Of a DNA stretch of 64,000 nucleotides, positions 14,738 to 34,885 are shown one piece after another. Every line of letters begins with the position of its first letter. Position 1 is the first letter of the stretch. Under the pieces are notes generated by a model. It searched no databases, had not been told where the DNA came from, and was given only the letters and a program-made list of their open reading frames with translations. Source of the DNA: Fundidesulfovibrio soli (GTDB taxonomy: Bacteria > Desulfobacterota > Desulfovibrionia > Desulfovibrionales > Desulfovibrionaceae); contig NZ_JAKZKW010000015.1 of NCBI RefSeq assembly GCF_022808695.1, positions 31,177-95,176 of the forward strand, in the 5' to 3' direction. The position numbers were made by a program, and so were the translations under genes.

Positions 14738-14814
14738 CGGGATGTAGCGCAGCCTGGTAGCGCACCTGAATGGGGTTCAGGGGGTCGGAGGTTCAACTCC
14801 TCTCATCCCGACCA
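14738..14814 (+). tRNA. tRNA-Pro (anticodon GGG)
   Basis: A complete cloverleaf: acceptor CGGGATG/CATCCCG, D stem GCGC/GCGC, anticodon stem CCTGA/TCAGG with loop ATGGGGT (anticodon GGG at 14772-14774), T arm GGAGG-TTCAACT-CCTCT, and encoded CCA. Reads proline codon CCC. Confidence 0.97.
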
Positions 14815-16713: not shown

Positions 16714-17509
16714 GAGGTCTCCTTCCCGGATGCCGCAGTGTTCAGACGTGAGAAACCGCACCCCGAAGTTTGAAACCGTAAGGCCTGGCCACTGTCGGAA
16801 GCCGCACAGCAAAACCGGCTCATGATCGAACGGGAGCGGCCTGGGAACAGGGAGCGAAGGCAACCAGTCCCCGTAGCCCTGGTTCCGCGCTTGGCGTCAG
16901 AAGGAGAGGGCTCCTCGCCACCGCTTCCTGCGCCCCAGTGCATATTTTGCAGCTCCGTGGGTGGTAATGCAATAATTTCGTTGGTTCTTCCCGCCTGTTG
17001 CCCTGCTGGCGCGTGAACGGGGTTTAGAGGGATAGAGCCAGCCTCTCACGCAAAGGTTGTTAATATCAGTGGCTTGCGGTTGGTCGCCGTGAGCCCTTTT
17101 GTTTTTTCAATGGTTGGTCACAGCTGAGCTGTCTGGCGTCACAAGAAGATGCTCATGGGTGATGATGCCGCCAGGCGGTGCGGGGGGGGGCACATGCGTC
17201 GCTGGCCACTGGGCCGCGGTTGTTGGTTCCAGGAAAATGACAGCCTGCGTTACGGATAGCCGGGGGGTGTCGCGAGTACGAACTTGCGCGCTGTACCCAC
17301 TTTCTTCACAGGGTGGGATCTTCAATGGGCCCGACTGGCCGACCGGGCCTGTCGGTTTGCATATCTTCAGCGAAGCAGCTATTAATCCTATGAGTTTGGT
17401 TTAGATGCCGCAGCCTGGCGTACCCATTCGGGAACACTTTGAACATGTGCTTTTCATGCCGCAGTGCGGCCATCAGTTGCGCTGCAAATTGACTTGGAAG
17501 GATGTCGGC
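16714..17509. other. Gene-poor junction of island-like segment
   Basis: About 800 bp without a convincing gene. It holds the degenerate tRNA/terminator copy (17014-17107). Short frames at 17107-17404 on both strands show no recognisable family and are likely debris. Base composition shifts toward A+T to the right. Confidence 0.45.
17014..17107 (+). repeat. Relic of tRNA-Pro 3' half and terminator
   Basis: TGAACGGGGTTTAGAGGG at 17014 resembles TGAATGGGGTTCAGGGGG of the tRNA at 14767, a CCTCTCA follows in both, and the exact 17-mer TCGCCGTGAGCCCTTTT is shared (14839-14855 and 17084-17100). The hairpin still forms (17071-17095) with trailing T. It could be an old attachment-site duplication. 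Confidence 0.55.
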
Positions 17510-18268
17510 ATGCCGTATCCGTTGGAATTTCTTCCTGGACATGAGGCGACATTTCTACTGGAAACCATTCAGAAACTCATAACAGCAGATTCAAGGGAGA
17601 CATACATATCGATCATAAAATCACTCAACAGCATAATCCCGTATGATTTTGCCACCTCAGGGTTGGTCACTCTCGACAATAGCGGAGCGGTCGTTGGCTA
17701 TGATCTGCTGAATATCAATTTTACGGAACAGTGGATCTCCGCTTATGCTGAGCAAAAAATGTACAGCATCGATGTGACTGTTGAGGAGAATTTTAGATAC
17801 TACAAAACGCAGTGCTGGCGCGAGACGTACAAGAAGTATGACAATCCCAGAAAATTGTTGTCCTTTGCGCATGACTTCAATTTGCTCAACGGCTACTCCT
17901 GTGGCGCGAAGGGTTTTGGCCTCTTTAAAAAGCCGAGCATGATTTCATTTGTTTGGAACTTCAATAAAAACTGCGAACATATTTCCGGGCTGATAGAATA
18001 TTTGACGCCGTTCATCCATGTCGCACTGAGCAACGTGTTGCATGCGCAAGCGGCAATGTCCGCCAGCGGTTTGTTGACCAAGAGGGAAAAGGAAGTTGTG
18101 TCGTGGCTTAAAGAAGGAAAAAGTTCATGGGAGATGTCAGAAATCTTGAAGGTGAGCGAGTCGACGATCAATTTCCATGTGAATAATATCATGCAGAAGC
18201 TTGACGCGGTCAATCGGGCGCAAGTCGTTGCTATTGCGTTACGGAATGGAATTATAGACTTTGATTGA
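17510..18268 (+). CDS. LuxR-type quorum-sensing regulator (solo)
   Basis: A 252-residue transcription factor with an N-terminal autoinducer-binding domain (about 1-165) and a C-terminal LuxR helix-turn-helix (LTKREKEVVSWLKEGKSS then WEMSEILKVSESTINFHV). Conserved ligand-domain aromatics are suggested by QWISAYAEQKMYSIDV and QCWRETYKK, though the usual DP pair is DV. No luxI synthase lies in the window, so it is a solo that may sense foreign or other signals. GGAAGGA precedes 17510; 17405 is an alternative start. Codon use and base content are clearly more A+T-rich than the neighbours, indicating transfer. Confidence 0.8.
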   Translation: MPYPLEFLPGHEATFLLETIQKLITADSRETYISIIKSLNSIIPYDFATSGLVTLDNSGAVVGYDLLNINFTEQWISAYAEQKMYSIDVTVEENFRYYKTQCWRETYKKYDNPRKLLSFAHDFNLLNGYSCGAKGFGLFKKPSMISFVWNFNKNCEHISGLIEYLTPFIHVALSNVLHAQAAMSASGLLTKREKEVVSWLKEGKSSWEMSEILKVSESTINFHVNNIMQKLDAVNRAQVVAIALRNGIIDFD

Positions 18269-27451: not shown

Positions 27452-28195
27452 CTACTCCTCCTGCAGGCCCCGGAGCAGGCAGGGGAAGTTGCCCTCGTAC
27501 ACGCGCCCGCCGGAGTGGGTGAAGCGGCTCATCACGTCGCCGTGGATCACGCCGCCGATGTCCGTCCAGCGCTTGCAGAAGGCGTAGTCCTCCGGGAGGT
27601 AGTCCCGGGTCTCGGGGTGGATCATGGTGTCGAAGAAGGCGTAGTTGTCGTACTGCTCGTCCTCTGAATTGATGAAGCTGTTGTGATACAGCAGCTGCGG
27701 ATAGGCCCTGGCCATCTCCTCCAGCACGTGCCGCCTGATGAGCATGAACCCCGTGGAGCCGTACTCCAGGGGGATCAGCCCGTGGTCGTCCACGGGGAAA
27801 CCCTTCCTGAACTTCACGGTGTAGCGCAGGGCGGCGGCCTCGGCCTCCAGGTCGCTCATGTCCTCAGGCATGCGGCGCAGTTTGGCGATATCCAGGTGCT
27901 TCACGGGGTAGATGCCGCAGGTCACGTCCTTGCCGGCCTCCAGGTAGCGCAGCACGGTCTGGGCCTCGAAGCCGATGTCCGCGTCGATGAAGAGCAGGTG
28001 GGTGTACTCCTGCTGGCGCAGGAAGGCGTTGGCGATGGTGTTGCGGGCCCGGGTGATCAGGCTCTCGTAGGAGGGCGTCTCGAAACCCACGCGCACGCCT
28101 TTCCCGCTCAACAAGTCCAGGGTCTCCAGCACGGAGCGCATGTAGGAGATGGTCACCGTGCCGTCGTAGCTGGGCGTGCCGATCAGGAGCTGCAC
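27452..28195 (-). CDS. GT-A-like glycosyltransferase family protein
   Basis: A 247-residue protein starting with GTG. LITRARNTIANAFL and the DxD-type motif HLLFIDADIGFEAQ (about 85-97) fit the small GT-A-like family related to Anp1/DUF glycosyltransferases; the C-terminal part has EDYAFCKRWTDIGG. A sugar donor and acceptor cannot be named. It lies 7 bp after the YbgF-like gene and ends the minus-strand sulfur/envelope operon. Confidence 0.65.
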   Translation of the reverse strand: MQLLIGTPSYDGTVTISYMRSVLETLDLLSGKGVRVGFETPSYESLITRARNTIANAFLRQQEYTHLLFIDADIGFEAQTVLRYLEAGKDVTCGIYPVKHLDIAKLRRMPEDMSDLEAEAAALRYTVKFRKGFPVDDHGLIPLEYGSTGFMLIRRHVLEEMARAYPQLLYHNSFINSEDEQYDNYAFFDTMIHPETRDYLPEDYAFCKRWTDIGGVIHGDVMSRFTHSGGRVYEGNFPCLLRGLQEE

Positions 28196-28202
28196 GCCGG
28201 GC

Positions 28203-29120
28203 CTACTTGATCTCGCGCAGCTGGATCTGGGCGCTGCGGGCCTCCGGGCTGTTGGGGTAGCGCTGGACCACGTCCTGGAAGAGGATCTTGGCCGCCTGGT
28301 TCTTGTTCAGCTTGCGGAAGGCCAGGCCCTGCTTGAGCATGGCCGCCGGGACCATGGTGCTGCTGGGATACTTCTGGATCAGGTCCTGGCAGAGCAGGGC
28401 GGAGCGGGCGAAGTCGCCCTGCTGGAAGTTGATCTCGGCCTGCCAGAACAGCGCGCCCGGGGCCTGCCTGGAGTTGGGGTAGCTCTTGAGCAGCTCGGAA
28501 TAGAGGCTGTTGGCCCGCTCGTAGTCGCGCTGGTTGAAGCTCTCCATGGCCATGTTGTAGACCGCCTCGGCCGGGTCCGTGGTGGTTGGCTCCTGATAGC
28601 GGCCGGAGGCCGGCGGCAGGTTGGGGGGCCTGTCCTCGTCGTCGTAGGCCGGGGTGCCGGAGCGGTAGCCCGGGTTGCCGGACGGGGCGACGTAGCCGCC
28701 CTGGTAGGTGTCGGGGTATCTGCCACCGGAGGGACCGCTCTGATACGCCCCGGTAGGCGGGGCCGAGGGGGCCACGGAAGGCCCGGAGGGATAGCCGGGC
28801 GAGGGATAGGCCCCCTGGGGCGGGGCCGACGGGGCGCGTGCGCCCGTGTCCACGCCCAGGGTGGCGGCGATGCGCGCCACGGTCTCCTCCAGGCGGGAGA
28901 CGCGGGCGTTCAGGTCCTGCAGGGAGTTGGCGTCGCCACGGTCGCCCAGGCGGGATTCCAGCTCCTCCAGGCGCATCCTGGTCTCCTGCTGTTTGGACTT
29001 GATGGCGTTTATGTCGGCAACGGCGTTGGCCTGGGCCATCTGCTGATCGTCCACCGACCGCGCCGGGGCGCAGGCGGACAGGGCGCACAGCAGCAGGGCG
29101 GCGGGAATGATACGGTTCAT
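28203..29120 (-). CDS. YbgF/CpoB-like TPR lipoprotein
   Basis: A 305-residue envelope lipoprotein: signal peptide with lipobox LSAC (Cys about 17), a coiled coil (about 25-75), a long Pro/Gly/Ser/Tyr-rich linker (about 85-180) and three TPR repeats (AEAVYNMAMESFNQRDY onward). Organisation matches the Tol-Pal accessory protein CpoB/YbgF, here without tol genes nearby. Start overlaps the previous stop (ATGA). Confidence 0.8.
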   Translation of the reverse strand: MNRIIPAALLLCALSACAPARSVDDQQMAQANAVADINAIKSKQQETRMRLEELESRLGDRGDANSLQDLNARVSRLEETVARIAATLGVDTGARAPSAPPQGAYPSPGYPSGPSVAPSAPPTGAYQSGPSGGRYPDTYQGGYVAPSGNPGYRSGTPAYDDEDRPPNLPPASGRYQEPTTTDPAEAVYNMAMESFNQRDYERANSLYSELLKSYPNSRQAPGALFWQAEINFQQGDFARSALLCQDLIQKYPSSTMVPAAMLKQGLAFRKLNKNQAAKILFQDVVQRYPNSPEARSAQIQLREIK

Positions 29121-29425
29121 GTGTCGCTCCGCAAGTGGGTTGCGACGGCCTCGGTCTTGGAGGCGAGGCCGCCTTGGCGGCCTTTGCGCCAATCGGCCTT
29201 GATCGTCAAATAAATCCTTTCGTGCCCGCCCTGCCTGAGGGCCTCGAAGCAGCGGTTGACCACGTCCATGACCTCCTCGAACTCCCCCTCGATGCACGTG
29301 CCCATGGGGCCGAGCTGGTACGGCAGCCCGGAGTCCCGAATGACGGCCACGGCCTTGGCCACGGCCGGGGAGAGGCTCCCGGCCTGGCCCATTGGGAAGA
29401 TCGAGAGCTCGGCGATGACGCTCAC
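29117..29425 (-). CDS. MTH1187/YkoF-type thiamine-binding family protein
   Basis: A 102-residue ferredoxin-fold protein of the DUF77 (MTH1187) family: MSVIAELSIFPMG at the N terminus and YQLGPMGTCIEGEFEEVM are characteristic. Family members bind thiamine or related ligands and form tetramers. Overlaps both neighbours by 4 bp, so it is inside the operon of the YeeE/rhodanese genes. Confidence 0.85.
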   Translation of the reverse strand: MSVIAELSIFPMGQAGSLSPAVAKAVAVIRDSGLPYQLGPMGTCIEGEFEEVMDVVNRCFEALRQGGHERIYLTIKADWRKGRQGGLASKTEAVATHLRSDT

Positions 29426-31617
29426 GGCTTTTTCTCCTGGCTCTGGGGCTGGGCCTGGCCCTGGGCCGGAGCCTGCTGCTCCTGGCCCTGCTGCTGGCCC
29501 TGCTGCTGGCCTTGCGCCTGGCTAGGAGCCTGGGGCTTGGGCGAGGTCACGGCGGGCCACTCGGGCCGGGCGGACCACTCGGTCCAGCCCGCGTCGTAGT
29601 ACTTCACGTTGGTGTAGCCCAGCAGGCGCGTGAGCACCCACCAGGTCTGGGAGGCCTGGTGCCCGGTGCGGCAGTGCACGATCACGGCCTGGTCCTTGGA
29701 GGGGATGATGGCCGCGTAGGCCTTTTCCAGCTCCTCGCGAGGCTTGATCACAGTTGCCTCGCCCGACTTGGCCTGGTCCTCGGTGAAGGGGCGGTTGACG
29801 GCGCCGGGGATGTGCCCGGGCCGGGCCTCGTCGCTCTTGGTCCCGGCGAAGTAGTCGGCCGGGCGCACGTCCAGGATGATGGTCTTGCCTCCGGCCATGG
29901 CGGCCTGCACCTCGCGCCCGGTGACGGTGAAGCCGTCCGGTCCCTCGGGGGCGTGGGGGCGTATGGCGGTGGCGGTGGCGGTGGGGAGCTGGGTGTCCTT
30001 CGGCAGGTTCGCGGCGCTCCAGGCCTTCATCCCGCCCTGCAGGATGGCGTAGCGTTTGTGGCCCAGGCGCTCCAGGGCCACTGCCACCAGGGTGGCGTCG
30101 ATGGGGGCTTCGCCCGTGACGATCACCACCAGGTCGCGCGCTCCGATGCCCATCTGCGCGAAGTGCTGGGCCAGCATGGGCGCGGGCAGCAGCATGGAGG
30201 GCAGCCCGGCCAGGTTGCCGCGCAGGCTCTCCACGTTGAGGGCGAAGCTGCCGGGGATGTGGCCGCCGTTGTACTGGGGCTGGGGCCGCAGGTCGATGAC
30301 CTTCAGCCCGGGCTTGCCCAGGTTGGCCGCCAGCCAGGCGGGCTCCACCAGGGCGGGCAGGACCGCGGGCGCCTGAAGCACGCCTGCGGCCGCCGCGCCG
30401 GAGGGGGCGGCGATTTCGGCGGGCAGGAAGAAGCTCCGGGCCGCTGTGATGGCCTTGGCCTGCTCGGCGCTCACCGGGCCGTCGCGCAGGGAGGCGGGCT
30501 TGAGCACGCGCTCGAAGAAGCCGCGCAGACCGTCGGTGAGCAGATAGACGTTGCCGAAGCCCAGGCGGGCCAGGGCGTCGCGGGCCTGGGCCGGGTGGGT
30601 CATGCCGTTGGAGTAGAGCACGATGATCCCGTGGCCGCGCTTGGAGGCCAGCTCCTCGGGCAGCTGCTGCACGGGGATGTTCACCGCGCCCTTGAGGTGG
30701 AAGGCGTCGAACTCGGCCTTGGAGCGGATGTCCACCAGGGTGAGCCCCTGCTCGCCGGCCATGAGGCGGCGGGCCAGCTCCTCTGGTTCGATGTGGTCCT
30801 TACCGGAGGCCATGGCCGCCAGCAGCTGGGCCTCGGGCGAGGCGGCCTGCCCGTTTTGCGCCTGGCCCTGGGGCGCGGCGGCGGGAGCGGGCTGGGCGGG
30901 CGCGCGCGAGGCCGTGAGCGCGGGGCCGCTGCCCGGGGCCAGATTGAGCCTGGGCAGGTTCAGGGCCACCACGGCGGCCAGACAGAGCAGGATGCTGAAC
31001 ACGGCCAGGAACACGCGGCTCACGCCCGGGCGGCCGATGGCCGGTCCGCGTTCGATGATTTCGCTGATCCAGAACATGACCACCGCGCCCACGGTCAGGG
31101 CCAGCACCAGCTGGTCGCGGGTGATGTCCAGCGACTGGTGCAGGAAGACCACCCCGCGCGAGCCGTAGCCCGCCAGGGGGGCCACCCAGGGGTAGGCCTC
31201 GTTGAAGCCGATGGAGCCCAGCACGACGCCCGTCAGGAACACCAGGGCGTCCATCCTGCCGGAGCCCAGGCCCACGGCGGCAGTGCCCGGGCACCAGCCG
31301 CCCATGGCGAAGCCAAGGCCGAAGAGCGCGCCCCCGGCGGCGTGGGCCCCGAGGATGGTGGGCATGAGGAAGAGGTCGTCCTGGGCCACGATGCCGAGCT
31401 TCTGCGCGGCCACCAGGCCAAGCGCGGCGGTGATGAGGGCCGAGAACATGACCTTCACCACGGACATGTCCGTGAAGTAGAACACCCCGGCCAGCCTGCG
31501 GGAGCTGCCGAAACCGGCCTTCTCCAGGCACAGGCCGAAGCAGAACCCGATGGCCAGGGCGGCGGCGAAGCCCAGGGGGGCGTTCAACTGCCCGGTGGAG
31601 TAGAGGGTGGCGATCAT
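29422..31617 (-). CDS. YeeE/YedE half-transporter fused to three rhodanese domains
   Basis: A 731-residue fusion. Residues 1-230 are a YeeE/YedE (sulf_transp) membrane unit with GGWCPGTAAVGLGSG, its key cysteine motif. Three rhodanese domains follow (about 270-370, 420-530, 560-680). Only the third has the catalytic cysteine (VIVHCRTGHQAS); the first (IIVLYSNGMTHP) and second (VVIVTGEAPID) lack it. A Gln/Ala-rich tail ends the protein. Probably imports thiosulfate or another sulfane-sulfur compound and passes sulfur to the rhodanese. Start set at ATG 31617, overlapping the previous stop by ATGA and well spaced from AGGAGG; GTG at 31623 is the alternative. Confidence 0.85.
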   Translation of the reverse strand: MIATLYSTGQLNAPLGFAAALAIGFCFGLCLEKAGFGSSRRLAGVFYFTDMSVVKVMFSALITAALGLVAAQKLGIVAQDDLFLMPTILGAHAAGGALFGLGFAMGGWCPGTAAVGLGSGRMDALVFLTGVVLGSIGFNEAYPWVAPLAGYGSRGVVFLHQSLDITRDQLVLALTVGAVVMFWISEIIERGPAIGRPGVSRVFLAVFSILLCLAAVVALNLPRLNLAPGSGPALTASRAPAQPAPAAAPQGQAQNGQAASPEAQLLAAMASGKDHIEPEELARRLMAGEQGLTLVDIRSKAEFDAFHLKGAVNIPVQQLPEELASKRGHGIIVLYSNGMTHPAQARDALARLGFGNVYLLTDGLRGFFERVLKPASLRDGPVSAEQAKAITAARSFFLPAEIAAPSGAAAAGVLQAPAVLPALVEPAWLAANLGKPGLKVIDLRPQPQYNGGHIPGSFALNVESLRGNLAGLPSMLLPAPMLAQHFAQMGIGARDLVVIVTGEAPIDATLVAVALERLGHKRYAILQGGMKAWSAANLPKDTQLPTATATAIRPHAPEGPDGFTVTGREVQAAMAGGKTIILDVRPADYFAGTKSDEARPGHIPGAVNRPFTEDQAKSGEATVIKPREELEKAYAAIIPSKDQAVIVHCRTGHQASQTWWVLTRLLGYTNVKYYDAGWTEWSARPEWPAVTSPKPQAPSQAQGQQQGQQQGQEQQAPAQGQAQPQSQEKKP

Positions 31618-32270
31618 GTCCACTGCCTCCTGAAGATCCAGGCCGTCAGGTAGCCCGTGGCGAACAGGCAGCCCATGAACAGGAAGCTGCCCGTGAGCAG
31701 CACGGCCCCGCCGGAGAGGCCCTGCCCGGAGGTGCAGCCCTGGGCCAGGCGTGAGGCGAAGCCCGCGATCACGCCGCCGATCAGGGCCAGGGCCAGGCGG
31801 CGGGCGCGCGAGGCCGTGGGCCCGCGCTCGATCATCAGGCGCAGCCGACCGCCCGAGGCCGCCGAGACCAGGCCGCCCACGAACGTCCCGGCCAGCATGA
31901 ACACCAGGTAATAGGAGAGCGGGTTGGGGAACCAGGGCCCGAAGTAGGCCGATGCCTCGGCGCGCGCGGGCAGCACGGCGTGCTCCAGCACGGCGCCCAG
32001 CCGGGCCAGGGCCCCGGAGGCCCCGAGGCCCGCGCCCAGGATCAGGTAGGAGGCCAGCAGGGTCAGGCCCAGCAGCACGCCCGCCAGGTAGGGGTTCATG
32101 GGGGCCTTGTCCTGCGGGAGGGCCACCTGGGGCCGGGGGGCCGCCGCGCGGGGCGACTCGACCTGCGGCTCGGGCGCGGCCTGCTCCGCAGAGGCGGCCT
32201 GGACGTCGGCCTCGAGAGCCTGGCTGTCGGCCTGGGGGGAAATCTCTTTCTCTTTATCGGTATCGCTCAT
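31614..32270 (-). CDS. YeeE/YedE half-transporter
   Basis: A 218-residue protein: a charged Ala/Glu/Pro-rich N-terminal extension (about 1-60) then four or five membrane segments with the family motif RLAQGCTSGQGLSGGAVLL (about 175-193), containing the conserved Cys. YeeE proteins are often split in two such halves; this one and the downstream fusion probably form one channel for thiosulfate or related sulfur anions. Three bp after the rhodanese gene. Confidence 0.82.
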   Translation of the reverse strand: MSDTDKEKEISPQADSQALEADVQAASAEQAAPEPQVESPRAAAPRPQVALPQDKAPMNPYLAGVLLGLTLLASYLILGAGLGASGALARLGAVLEHAVLPARAEASAYFGPWFPNPLSYYLVFMLAGTFVGGLVSAASGGRLRLMIERGPTASRARRLALALIGGVIAGFASRLAQGCTSGQGLSGGAVLLTGSFLFMGCLFATGYLTAWIFRRQWT

Positions 32271-32273
32271 GGT

Positions 32274-32891
32274 CTAGCATCCTGCGCTTTTGGAGGCCGG
32301 GGGTTGGGGAACATCGCCGGGTCCGGGCTGGCCGGGCTGGCCGGGCTGGCCCGGAGCGGCCGGGGCCGGGGGCGCGGGCTGCGCGGGGGGAGCCTGCTTG
32401 GCGGGCGCGCCCTGGGCCGGGCCTTGCGCCGGGGCGGCAGCGGGGGCGGGCGCGGAAGTCGGGGCCGCCTGGTTCAGGGGCACCTCCTTCACGGCCAGGC
32501 CCAACTCGCGGGCCTCCCACCAGCCCGCCAGTCCGCCGCGCAGCACCAGCACGGGGCGCGCGGTCTTCTGGGCCAGGGCTCCGGCCACGGCCATGGCCGT
32601 GGTGCCGTCCTTGTCCACCAGGAGCAGCGGGCCGGGGGCGGAGAGGAAGCTCTCGTCGCCGAGCACGGCCGAGGCCTCGATGTTCATGCTGCCGGGCAGG
32701 GCGTAGTCAGAGAATTCGCCCTGAGGGCGGATGTCCACGATTTCGAGCCCCGCCGGGGGCTTGGCGAGCATGGCCGCAACCTCGTCCGGCGCGGCGGCGC
32801 GGGGCAGATCCTGCTCCTTGGCCAGGGCCGGAGTCCGGGGGGCGAGCCCCAGCGCGGCCGCCAGGACCAACAGCAATAACGGGCGTTTCAT
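32274..32891 (-). CDS. Exported rhodanese-like protein without catalytic Cys
   Basis: A 205-residue protein with signal peptide (1-24) and one rhodanese domain (about 30-140): LEIVDIRPQGEFSDYALPGSMNIEA and VLVLRGGLAGWWEA are typical (the first in parts). The active-site loop reads LLLVDKDGTTA, with Asp where Cys is expected, so it probably binds rather than transfers sulfur. A Pro/Ala/Gly/Gln tail ends in a lone Cys (KSAGC), which could replace the missing thiol. First gene of the operon; GAAGGAG precedes the start. Confidence 0.75.
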   Translation of the reverse strand: MKRPLLLLVLAAALGLAPRTPALAKEQDLPRAAAPDEVAAMLAKPPAGLEIVDIRPQGEFSDYALPGSMNIEASAVLGDESFLSAPGPLLLVDKDGTTAMAVAGALAQKTARPVLVLRGGLAGWWEARELGLAVKEVPLNQAAPTSAPAPAAAPAQGPAQGAPAKQAPPAQPAPPAPAAPGQPGQPGQPGPGDVPQPPASKSAGC

Positions 32892-33082
32892 GAGGTGTTC
32901 TCCTTCGCTCATTGGTACCACCGTGCCGTTTTTTTGCAACCGGCCGGGCCCGGCGTGCGGCCCTGGCCGGGACTGACGCCCCTTTTGGGCGCGACAGGAT
33001 GCCCCGATTGTGCGAAGCTCCAATTGACCTTCCCCCCGCCATCTTTTAGAGGGCGTTTGCACATACGCCAACAGGTGAGTTC

Positions 33083-34885
33083 ATGGTAGACAAGTCGCGC
33101 ATAAGAAACTTCAGCATCATCGCCCACATCGACCACGGGAAGTCCACCCTGGCCGACCGCATCCTGGAGGTCACCAAGGTGATCACCCAAAGGGAGATGC
33201 GCGAGCAATATCTGGACAAGATGGACCTCGAGCGCGAGCGCGGCATCACCATCAAGGCGCAGACCGTGCGCATCCCCTACCGCGACCCCGAACACGGGGA
33301 CTTCGTGCTCAACCTCATCGACACCCCGGGCCACGTGGACTTCTCCTATGAGGTCTCCCGCTCCCTGGCCGCCTGTGAGGGCGCGCTGCTGGTGGTGGAC
33401 GCCACCCAGGGCGTGGAGGCCCAGACCCTGGCCAACGTCTTCCTGGCCCTGGACAACGATCTGGAGATCATCCCGGTCCTCAACAAGATCGACCTGCCCT
33501 CCGCCGACGCCGACCGCGTGAAGTCCGAGATCGAAGAGGCCATCGGCCTGGACACCAAGGACTCCGTGGCCGTTTCCGCCAAGACCGGGCTCAACGTGGA
33601 GCAGGTGCTCAAGGCCATCGTGGAGCGCCTCCCCGCGCCCAAGGGCGAGACCGACGCGCCCCTGCAGGCCCTGATCTTCGACTCCTGGTACGACGCCTAC
33701 CAGGGCGTGGTGGTGCTCTTCCGGGTCATGGAAGGCTCCCTCAAGGTGGGCCAGAAGATCAAGATGTTCTCCACCGGCGCGGTGTTCGAGGTGCTTCGCC
33801 TGGGCGTGTTCTCCCCGGGCCCGGTGGACGTGACCGACTTCGGCCCGGGCGAGGTCGGCTTCATGAGCGGGTCCATCAAGAACCTGCAGGAAGCCCGCGT
33901 GGGCGACACCATCACCCTGGCGGACAATCCCTGTTCCGCGCCGCTGCCCGGCTTCAAGGAAGTGAAGCCCATGGTCTTCTGCGGGCTCTACCCCGTGGAC
34001 GCCAACGACTACGAGCAGCTCAAGAACGCCCTGGAGAAGCTCCAGCTCAACGACGCGGCCCTCACCTACGAGCCCGAGACCTCCCAGGCCCTGGGCTTCG
34101 GCTACCGTTGCGGCTTCCTGGGCCTGCTGCACATGGAGATCGTGCAGGAGCGCCTGGAGCGCGAATTCCAGGTGGAGCTCATCGCCACGGCCCCCTCGGT
34201 CATCTACAAGGTGGAGCGCACCGACGGCTCCGTGATCTCCATCGACAACCCCTCCAAGCTGCCCAAGACGCAGGAGACGGCCACCCTCTACGAGCCCTAC
34301 GCCCGCGTGGAGATCCACGTCCCCAACGAGTACGTGGGCAACGTCTTCAAGCTCTGCGAGGAGAAGCGCGGCATCCAGAAGGACATCCGCTACCTCACGG
34401 CCACCCGGGTGATCATCACCTACGAGCTGCCCTTCGCCGAGATCGTCTACGACTTCTTCGACCGCCTGAAATCCGGCACGCGCGGCTACGCCTCGCTGGA
34501 CTACGAGCTCATCGACTACCGCGCCTCGGACCTGGTGAAGCTCGACATCCTGATCAACGGCGACCCCGTGGACGCCCTGGCCGTGATCGTGCACCGCGAG
34601 AAGGCCTACTACCTGGGCCGCGACGTGGCGCTCAAGCTCAAGAAGGTCATCCCGCGCCAGATGTTCGAGGTGGTGATCCAGGCGGCCATCGGGGCCAAGA
34701 TCATCGCCCGCGAGCGCATCGCGCCCCTGCGCAAGGACGTCATCGCCAAGTGTTACGGCGGCGACATCACCCGCAAGCGCAAGCTGTTGGAAAAGCAGAA
34801 GGAAGGCAAGCGCCGCATGAAGCGCATGGGCAACGTGGAGCTGCCCCAGGAGGCCTTCCTGGCCGCCCTCAAGGCCGGGGACTAG
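33083..34885 (+). CDS. lepA: Elongation factor 4 (LepA)
   Basis: A 600-residue ribosomal GTPase that promotes back-translocation or ribosome biogenesis. G1 AHIDHGKST (about 13-21), G2/RGIT, G3 DTPGHVDF, G4 NKID and the LepA-specific C-terminal domain with [18 protein letters not shown] are complete. Heads a plus-strand run with lepB and comM; a lepA-lepB pairing is widespread. Confidence 0.97.

Follow-up and report, generated by a model that had tools for sequence, protein, structure and literature searches.

A three-gene set in Fundidesulfovibrio soli that may form an extracytoplasmic sulfur relay to a two-piece YeeE channel

The stretch of DNA analysed here, called the window, comprises 64,000 nucleotides of the Fundidesulfovibrio soli assembly GCF_022808695.1 (contig NZ_JAKZKW010000015.1, positions 31,177-95,176 of the forward strand). 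At positions 29422-32891 of the window the minus strand carries three closely packed genes, which encode an exported rhodanese-like protein (the putative carrier), then the C-terminal half of a YeeE-type membrane protein (C-half), and then the N-terminal half (N-half) fused to rhodanese domains, so that the C-half gene precedes that of the N-half. All three genes lie where a sequence-only reading had placed them, a reading that took them for a sulfur import channel fused to a triple rhodanese relay, possibly for thiosulfate in a sulfate reducer. The features of the set are as follows.

32274..32891, minus strand: exported carrier, with a signal peptide (by eye), a degenerate rhodanese (residues 35-126; PF00581, 37.5 bits), a Pro/Ala-rich arm and the terminal Cys205
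32277..32279, minus strand: codon of the terminal Cys205 (..SAGC); a -GC ending is found in 8/8 orthologs including the window
31614..32270, minus strand: YeeE C-half, 218 residues (Pfam and profile), with the codon of Cys179, which matches TsuA Cys293, at 31734-31736
29422..31623, minus strand: YeeE N-half fused to three rhodanese domains, 733 residues from GTG 31623 (Pfam and model)
30961..31623, minus strand: membrane N-half, residues 1-221 (alignment and model), with the codon of Cys111, which matches TsuA Cys91, at 31291-31293
30508..30816, minus strand: rhodanese domain 1 (Pfam, alignment and model), with Tyr337 (30613-30615) at the catalytic position
29989..30363, minus strand: rhodanese domain 2, without a catalytic Cys, the first domain of a tandem sulfurtransferase (alignment and 1e0c fold match)
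29539..29946, minus strand: rhodanese domain 3, with the catalytic Cys651 in CRTGHQAS, codon 29671-29673 (alignment and fold match)

On the sequence comparisons made here the set is real, conserved and widely spread, and family models see in it only separate "rhodanese" and "sulphur transport" domains. Among 247 genomes of the order, 8 have full-length orthologs; six of these, counting the window's own genome, belong to the window's genus. A scan of a bacterial genome collection gave 80 loci, in 40 of which one match covered the fusion from end to end. By row title these loci belong to the Thermodesulfobacteriota, Planctomycetota, Lentisphaerota, Verrucomicrobiota, Myxococcota, Pseudomonadota and Kiritimatiellota; such phylum labels are the submitters' titles, and metagenome bins account for many of the rows. 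Of the named relatives, Fundidesulfovibrio agrisoli is the nearest (93% over 675 columns). The tree intermixes the labels: Accumulibacter, for instance, falls inside a clade of Planctomycetes-Verrucomicrobia-Chlamydiae (PVC) rows. This pattern suggests transfer, although stray contigs may be present in bins and call for caution. Clustering of the neighbours (645 open reading frames (ORFs) from 53 loci, L053-L105) yielded three gene families present in 49, 48 and 41 loci; the next families occur in six or fewer and look like shadow ORFs or unrelated genes. The first family is without L053, L059, L080 and L083, yet tblastn finds the gene in these four loci, where longer overlapping frames were probably picked as ORFs. 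Since the same three families recur in the same order in several phyla, the set goes beyond chance. In a phylum sample, strong matches to the carrier (>110 bits) were found in 7 of 297 genomes, the others looking like ordinary rhodaneses; A2, which served as the query for this survey only, has three rows that are cut short (L044-L046) and one, L040, that starts inside a longer gene. The counts given below were taken from alignments A4 of the fusion (35 of the 80 loci plus the window, with L059, L074, L076, L080 and L083 excluded from the 40 single-match fusions), A5 of the C-half (the window and 34 loci) and A6 of the carrier (37 out of 48 partner ORFs, excluding short and truncated ones).

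By homology and modelled fold, the two membrane proteins are YeeE-type halves, as the sequence-only reading had supposed. Against the Pfam family Sulf_transp/YeeE (PF04143; gathering score 27 bits) the N-half scores 41.5 bits over profile positions 4-150 and the C-half 63.4 bits over 163-309, and they are the only PF04143 matches in their own genome. Comparison with TsuA structures, which that reading had also proposed, points the same way: a profile of the C-half puts the invariant Cys179 on TsuA Cys293 (E 0.0076), a profile of the whole fusion reaches TsuA at E 0.001, and a model of the N-half alone (mean predicted local distance difference test score, pLDDT, 82.6; predicted template modelling score, pTM, 0.73) has TsuA chains 8k1r, 6leo and 6lep as its best matches among 176 chains aligned with a second aligner (Z 8.4, 7.8 and 7.8 over 162-176 residues). 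Cys293 was aligned directly, and the correspondences of Cys91 and Cys22 in the N-half were derived from the offset of the aligned TsuA range. Foldseek with the whole fusion gave only rhodaneses among the matches listed, and phmmer with the N-half alone gave no match. Both presumed channel cysteines are invariant, Cys111 in 36/36 rows of A4 and Cys179 in 35/35 rows of A5; a search by regular expression failed to find the N-half Cys in 15 of the 80 loci, owing to letters such as AWCP and to broken frames, and the A4 column count was used instead.

Pfam finds three rhodanese stretches in the fusion protein. In the first, a Tyr stands at the catalytic position in all 36 rows of A4 within an otherwise conserved loop, and one ortholog outside A4 (L040/L059, in genome G227) keeps Cys there; the second is without a catalytic Cys, and the third has Cys651 in 36/36 rows. 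The model of domains 2 and 3 together (residues 415-693) aligns with 1e0c at Z 32.6 and 2.2 A over 271 residues, and by modelled fold and Cys pattern the two domains make up an ordinary tandem thiosulfate sulfurtransferase. In enzymes of this kind the first domain is usually inactive, and three domains with one catalytic therefore amount to one tandem enzyme plus one extra dead, conserved domain. The earlier claim that only the last of the three fused domains is catalytic is thus borne out. The related idea of binding-only and catalytic carriers on a channel keeps its one catalytic sulfurtransferase and its conserved non-catalytic domains, and its triple relay is better seen as a tandem enzyme with a dead domain. 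Between domains 1 and 2 a Cys is present in 31 of the 36 rows, where the window has Val (residue 373). A selenocysteine in a rhodanese was considered and rejected, the stops inside the L004 and L009 matches lying past the gene ends by their ORF coordinates.

The rhodaneses of the fusion are predicted, from the model and from loop charges, to lie outside the membrane, on the same side as the exported partner. Averaged over the 36 rows, the loops predicted inside hold 2.31, 1.03 and 2.94 lysines plus arginines, and those predicted outside 0.14, 0.25 and 0.75; the linker to the rhodaneses comes after an inside-to-outside helix at residues 203-221, and the helices of the model agree with the loop charges. 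TsuA is described as having nine helices (PMC11582611) and a C-terminus that carries YeeD on the cytoplasmic side (PMC11073785), so that its N-terminus would be outside and, carried over to the fusion, helix 203-221 would lead outwards.

The carrier consists of 205 residues, the last of which, Cys205, is its sole cysteine, and it has Asp at the position of the rhodanese Cys, in agreement with the earlier description of an exported rhodanese with Asp for Cys and a lone C-terminal Cys. In the relatives the same column holds Asp in 36/37 rows and Cys in 1/37. The terminal Cys is present in all 37 rows of A6 (SAGC in 35, PAGC in one, SGGC in one), at the end of an arm of 36 to 66 residues (median 49) that is 27% Pro and 20% Ala and has no other Cys. 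The mean majority fraction per column is 0.31 in the arm and 0.73 in the domain, and on this alignment the terminal Cys is the most conserved feature of the arm. By tblastn a -GC end is found in 49 of the 50 loci having such a protein, the exception being L101, with broken frames.

In most relatives the carrier domain forms the C-terminal part of a larger exported protein, about 680 residues long and composed in order of a signal peptide, a metallo-beta-lactamase domain, a rhodanese-like domain, an active rhodanese, the degenerate rhodanese and the arm. The best solved relatives of this long form are 3tp9 (317.5 bits) and 3r2u (258.4 bits), the latter of which we take to be Staphylococcus aureus CstB; the residues of the metal-ligand motif are kept in 36 or 37 of the 37 rows and the Cys of the active rhodanese in 37/37. 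Among the stretches examined, a short form without the dioxygenase domain was found in the window's genus, in L054, G230 and G532, and in the Accumulibacter/Burkholderiales loci L067, L101 and L105. All short-form loci keep the degenerate rhodanese domain, and all but L101 the terminal Cys. The dioxygenase part has no match in the window, nor in its own genome at E<=0.001. On the tree the short/long label changes twice, a count that cannot by itself tell gain from loss; because the short forms are nested among long ones, loss of the dioxygenase part is the likelier origin of the short form.

Cysteine tails also occur on other rhodaneses near split YeeE genes. Planctomycetota and Chloroflexi have fusions of an N-half to one rhodanese, and 6/6 complete ones (L106-L110, L112) have a GGCGG or GGCG end, closely resembling SoxY; in L113 and L122 a separate rhodanese follows the N-half and has EGC at its end. 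Within the window's order an SCGG end was found in 6 of 14 rows near YeeE, on tandem enzymes directly before the C-half; the 14 are a small set from which rows sharing the last 14 residues and length were removed, which includes the window's fusion, and in which L020 and L192, with contig and tail in common, are apparently a single gene cut in two ways. The SCGG-tailed enzymes of L033 and L035 have a signal peptide by eye. In other Desulfovibrionales (L033, L035-L038) the split YeeE pair, which has the same gene order, is immediately preceded by a separately encoded tandem rhodanese whose Gly/Ser-rich tail has YVSCGG or YISCGG at its end.

We propose that the three genes make an extracytoplasmic (periplasmic) sulfane-sulfur relay that loads a two-piece YeeE channel, a proposal to which we give about an even chance. 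The two membrane proteins would form one YeeE-type channel with in-line cysteines, C-half Cys179 the outer and N-half Cys111 the inner, and the N-half would bear on the periplasmic side the dead rhodanese domain and the tandem thiosulfate sulfurtransferase with its active Cys651. The exported protein would be a mobile carrier, docking through a rhodanese fold that is without a catalytic Cys, and Cys205 on the long Pro/Ala-rich arm would hold sulfur as persulfide or thiosulfonate like the arm of SoxY, in which the Cys of the C-terminal GGCGG binds the sulfur substrate (PMC6067878). Cys651 and/or Cys205 would take sulfur from thiosulfate, polysulfide or persulfides outside, and the sulfur would be handed to Cys179, then to Cys111 and then to a cytoplasmic thiol acceptor, where TsuA uses Cys22 and YeeD; in TsuA the relay runs from outside to inside through Cys293, Cys91 and Cys22 to Cys17 of YeeD (PMC11073785). 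In most relatives a CstB-like persulfide-dioxygenase/rhodanese would make or consume the persulfide, and in the window's genus only the carrier is present. The homologies, the gene order, the conserved cysteines and the absence of the other parts are observed, the model and the charge pattern support rhodaneses outside the membrane, and every step of the mechanism beyond the homologies is inferred, including the sulfur on the arm, the inward direction and the substrate. The split YedE1E2 is reported to import zero-valent sulfur, with glutathione persulfide formed inside (PMC10812762), which favours a relay over the import of whole thiosulfate. The window's own genome has dsrA over the cut-off, which makes the host a sulfate/sulfite reducer by gene content, as had been suggested; a TusA gene lies elsewhere in this genome, and sulfane sulfur could thus be used in the cytoplasm.

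A wider and more tentative idea, which we consider possible and less probable than the relay itself, is that the rhodaneses serving split YeeE several times grew SoxY-like C-terminal thiol arms (SAGC, GGCGG, GGCG, SCGG, EGC) and make up a general class of extracytoplasmic swinging-arm persulfide carriers loading membrane sulfur channels. The window would then represent a minimal form, with carrier, channel and tethered sulfurtransferase, and in most relatives the form would be enlarged by an exported dioxygenase.

Several observations weigh against these proposals. The direction of transport is not readable from sequence, and the presence of a dioxygenase-like partner in most relatives could point to detoxification rather than uptake. 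With the N-half model Foldseek found no TsuA chain at E<=10 and nothing at E<=0.001; TsuA was ranked for the N-half by the second aligner only, with a middling Z. The fusion protein itself is without a Cys tail, and none is present in 8 of the 14 order rows near YeeE, nor in L124, L127 and L130. Of 34 control rows, which are mostly the strongest rhodanese matches and not a random draw, four have Cys among their final three residues, in no case within a Gly- or Lys-rich arm, and the tail statistic within the order is weak when taken alone.

It is also conceivable that, like TsuA, the split YeeE lets intact thiosulfate into the cell, with the rhodaneses only binding or pre-concentrating it. The YeeE homology of both halves, the closeness of the tandem domain to thiosulfate sulfurtransferases and the dsrA gene of the genome are all consistent with such an importer, but the cytoplasmic Cys22 of TsuA has no counterpart in 36/36 rows of A4, where G/S, S and S are found instead of Cys. 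No YeeD or TusA gene adjoins the set, the TusA matches in the genome being on other contigs only, and YeeD is described as essential for YeeE-mediated uptake in Escherichia coli (PMC11073785). Both halves also fall far below the cut-offs of the TsuA-specific models (NF052577, N-half 14 bits and C-half 19 bits against 400; NF041049, 19.6 bits against 645), and an active outer sulfurtransferase would be expected to split thiosulfate before entry. Together with the zero-valent sulfur reported for YedE1E2 (PMC10812762), these points do not uphold the earlier suggestion of thiosulfate as the substrate, and we rank import of whole thiosulfate second and consider it unlikely. We also judge it unlikely that the terminal Cys, instead of carrying sulfur, anchors the protein, tethers it through a disulfide or binds a metal; a C-terminal Cys could have any of these roles, but the arm that ends in this one is long and little conserved, and tails like it are found again on rhodaneses that partner split YeeE, as in SoxY.

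Detoxification or export of sulfide or persulfide would have the dioxygenase-like protein and the rhodaneses turn persulfides to sulfite or thiosulfate outside, with the channel letting sulfur out and the window holding a remnant of the system. The carrier is indeed fused to the metallo-beta-lactamase/rhodanese protein in most relatives, with the metal ligands kept, and CstB is part of a sulfide-to-thiosulfate oxidation system (PMC5480029). However, carrier and channel persist where the dioxygenase part is gone, in the window's genus and in others, and the split YedE1E2 is reported to import (PMC10812762); we regard this explanation as rather unlikely. Very improbable is the handling of selenium (or tellurium) by a YedE-type selenium importer with the rhodaneses as selenium carriers: the matches of both halves to selenium YedE models and of the tandem domain to ExtH that would point to it are far below the curated cut-offs (22.8 of 200, 29 of 350 and 46 of 200 bits), and there is no selenium gene among the conserved neighbours of the set.

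Two further features lie at the ends of the set.

32912..32939, minus strand: likely promoter of the gene set, TTGCAA, 16 bases, TACCAA (by eye)
29117..29425, minus strand: gene for an MTH1187-family thiamine-binding protein, with a 4-base overlap with the end of the fusion gene (TIGR00106 over cut-off)

The candidate promoter is kept in 7/8 of the upstream regions aligned, namely in L054 and six loci of the genus, with G230 as the exception. A consensus scan for a sigma-70 promoter upstream of the set gave no match, nor did an Rfam scan of 27900-33200. The divergent plus-strand neighbour at 33083 is, judging from its translation, presumably lepA. For the fusion gene, an ATG at 31617 (731 residues), which overlaps the preceding stop, appears the likelier start over GTG 31623, and two more distant orthologs start at the corresponding ATG. 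The gene for the thiamine-binding protein adjoins the set in 6/8 orthologous loci and was not found beside it in G227 and G230; on this comparison it is a neighbour in the window's genus, outside the conserved set. A YTD cluster or a YeeD partner was considered and rejected, neither being at the locus. Elsewhere in the window, a tRNA-Pro (ggg) at 14738-14814 is followed by ORFs without a Pfam match and by a dip in G+C at 16-18 kb, a stretch that is possibly an inserted element, and a gene for a LuxR-type regulator with an autoinducer-binding domain lies at 17405-18268 in a stretch of lower G+C.

The hand-over of sulfur to YeeE channels from outside is poorly understood, and so is sulfur import across the inner membrane, of which the SoxT paper says the same. 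The gene set names a candidate carrier and, within it, one residue, the terminal Cys, as a putative sulfur-holding site, in a three-gene unit common to anaerobes and PVC bacteria. Beyond the sequence-only reading, alignments and models add the predicted position of the rhodaneses outside the membrane, the place of the C-terminal Cys at the end of an apparently flexible arm, and the spread of the set over several phyla. If the proposed relay is true, it would be a new way to load sulfur into cells.

Among known systems, the TsuA (YeeE)/YeeD pair of Spirochaeta thermophila and E. coli shares with the set the channel family, the outer Cys293 and middle Cys91, and a fold match in the N-half, but here there are two polypeptides with the C-half gene first, no counterpart of Cys22 and no adjoining YeeD, and the sulfur-handling domains are predicted outside, whereas in TsuA/YeeD they are inside. 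The split YedE1E2 and PmpA-PmpB likewise consist of two separate halves with one conserved Cys each (PMC11582611, PMC10812762); theirs are of about 130 amino acids each, whereas in the present set three rhodaneses are joined to one half, and ahead of the pair comes an exported rhodanese with a Cys tail. The YTD cluster of sulfur disproportionators also has a YeeE-type protein in the sulfur metabolism of Desulfobacterota (PMC13047784, PMC12998232), with the difference that TusA, DsrE and Chp genes are not conserved neighbours here.

The remaining likenesses are to the rhodaneses and to the arm. Tandem thiosulfate sulfurtransferases (Azotobacter 1e0c; Mycobacterium tuberculosis CysA2, CysA3 and SseA) resemble domains 2 and 3 in having Cys in the second domain only, but here the enzyme is tethered to a transporter half and is, by prediction, outside the membrane. 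The long carrier form of the relatives aligns with CstB and other persulfide dioxygenase-rhodaneses (3tp9, 3r2u), to which it adds a signal peptide, an additional degenerate rhodanese and the arm ending in SAGC, while the window is without the dioxygenase. SoxY has, like the carrier, a C-terminal Cys in a short conserved tail, and the sulfur-binding function is that of SoxY (PMC6067878); in contrast, the fold here is a rhodanese, the only family that Pfam finds, the tail is SAGC, with GGCGG only in relatives, and no Sox genes are among the conserved neighbours of the set. We found no description of this gene set in the open-licence literature searched by title and abstract. The parts are known, and what is new is their combination, an exported Cys-armed rhodanese together with a sulfurtransferase tethered to the channel outside the membrane.

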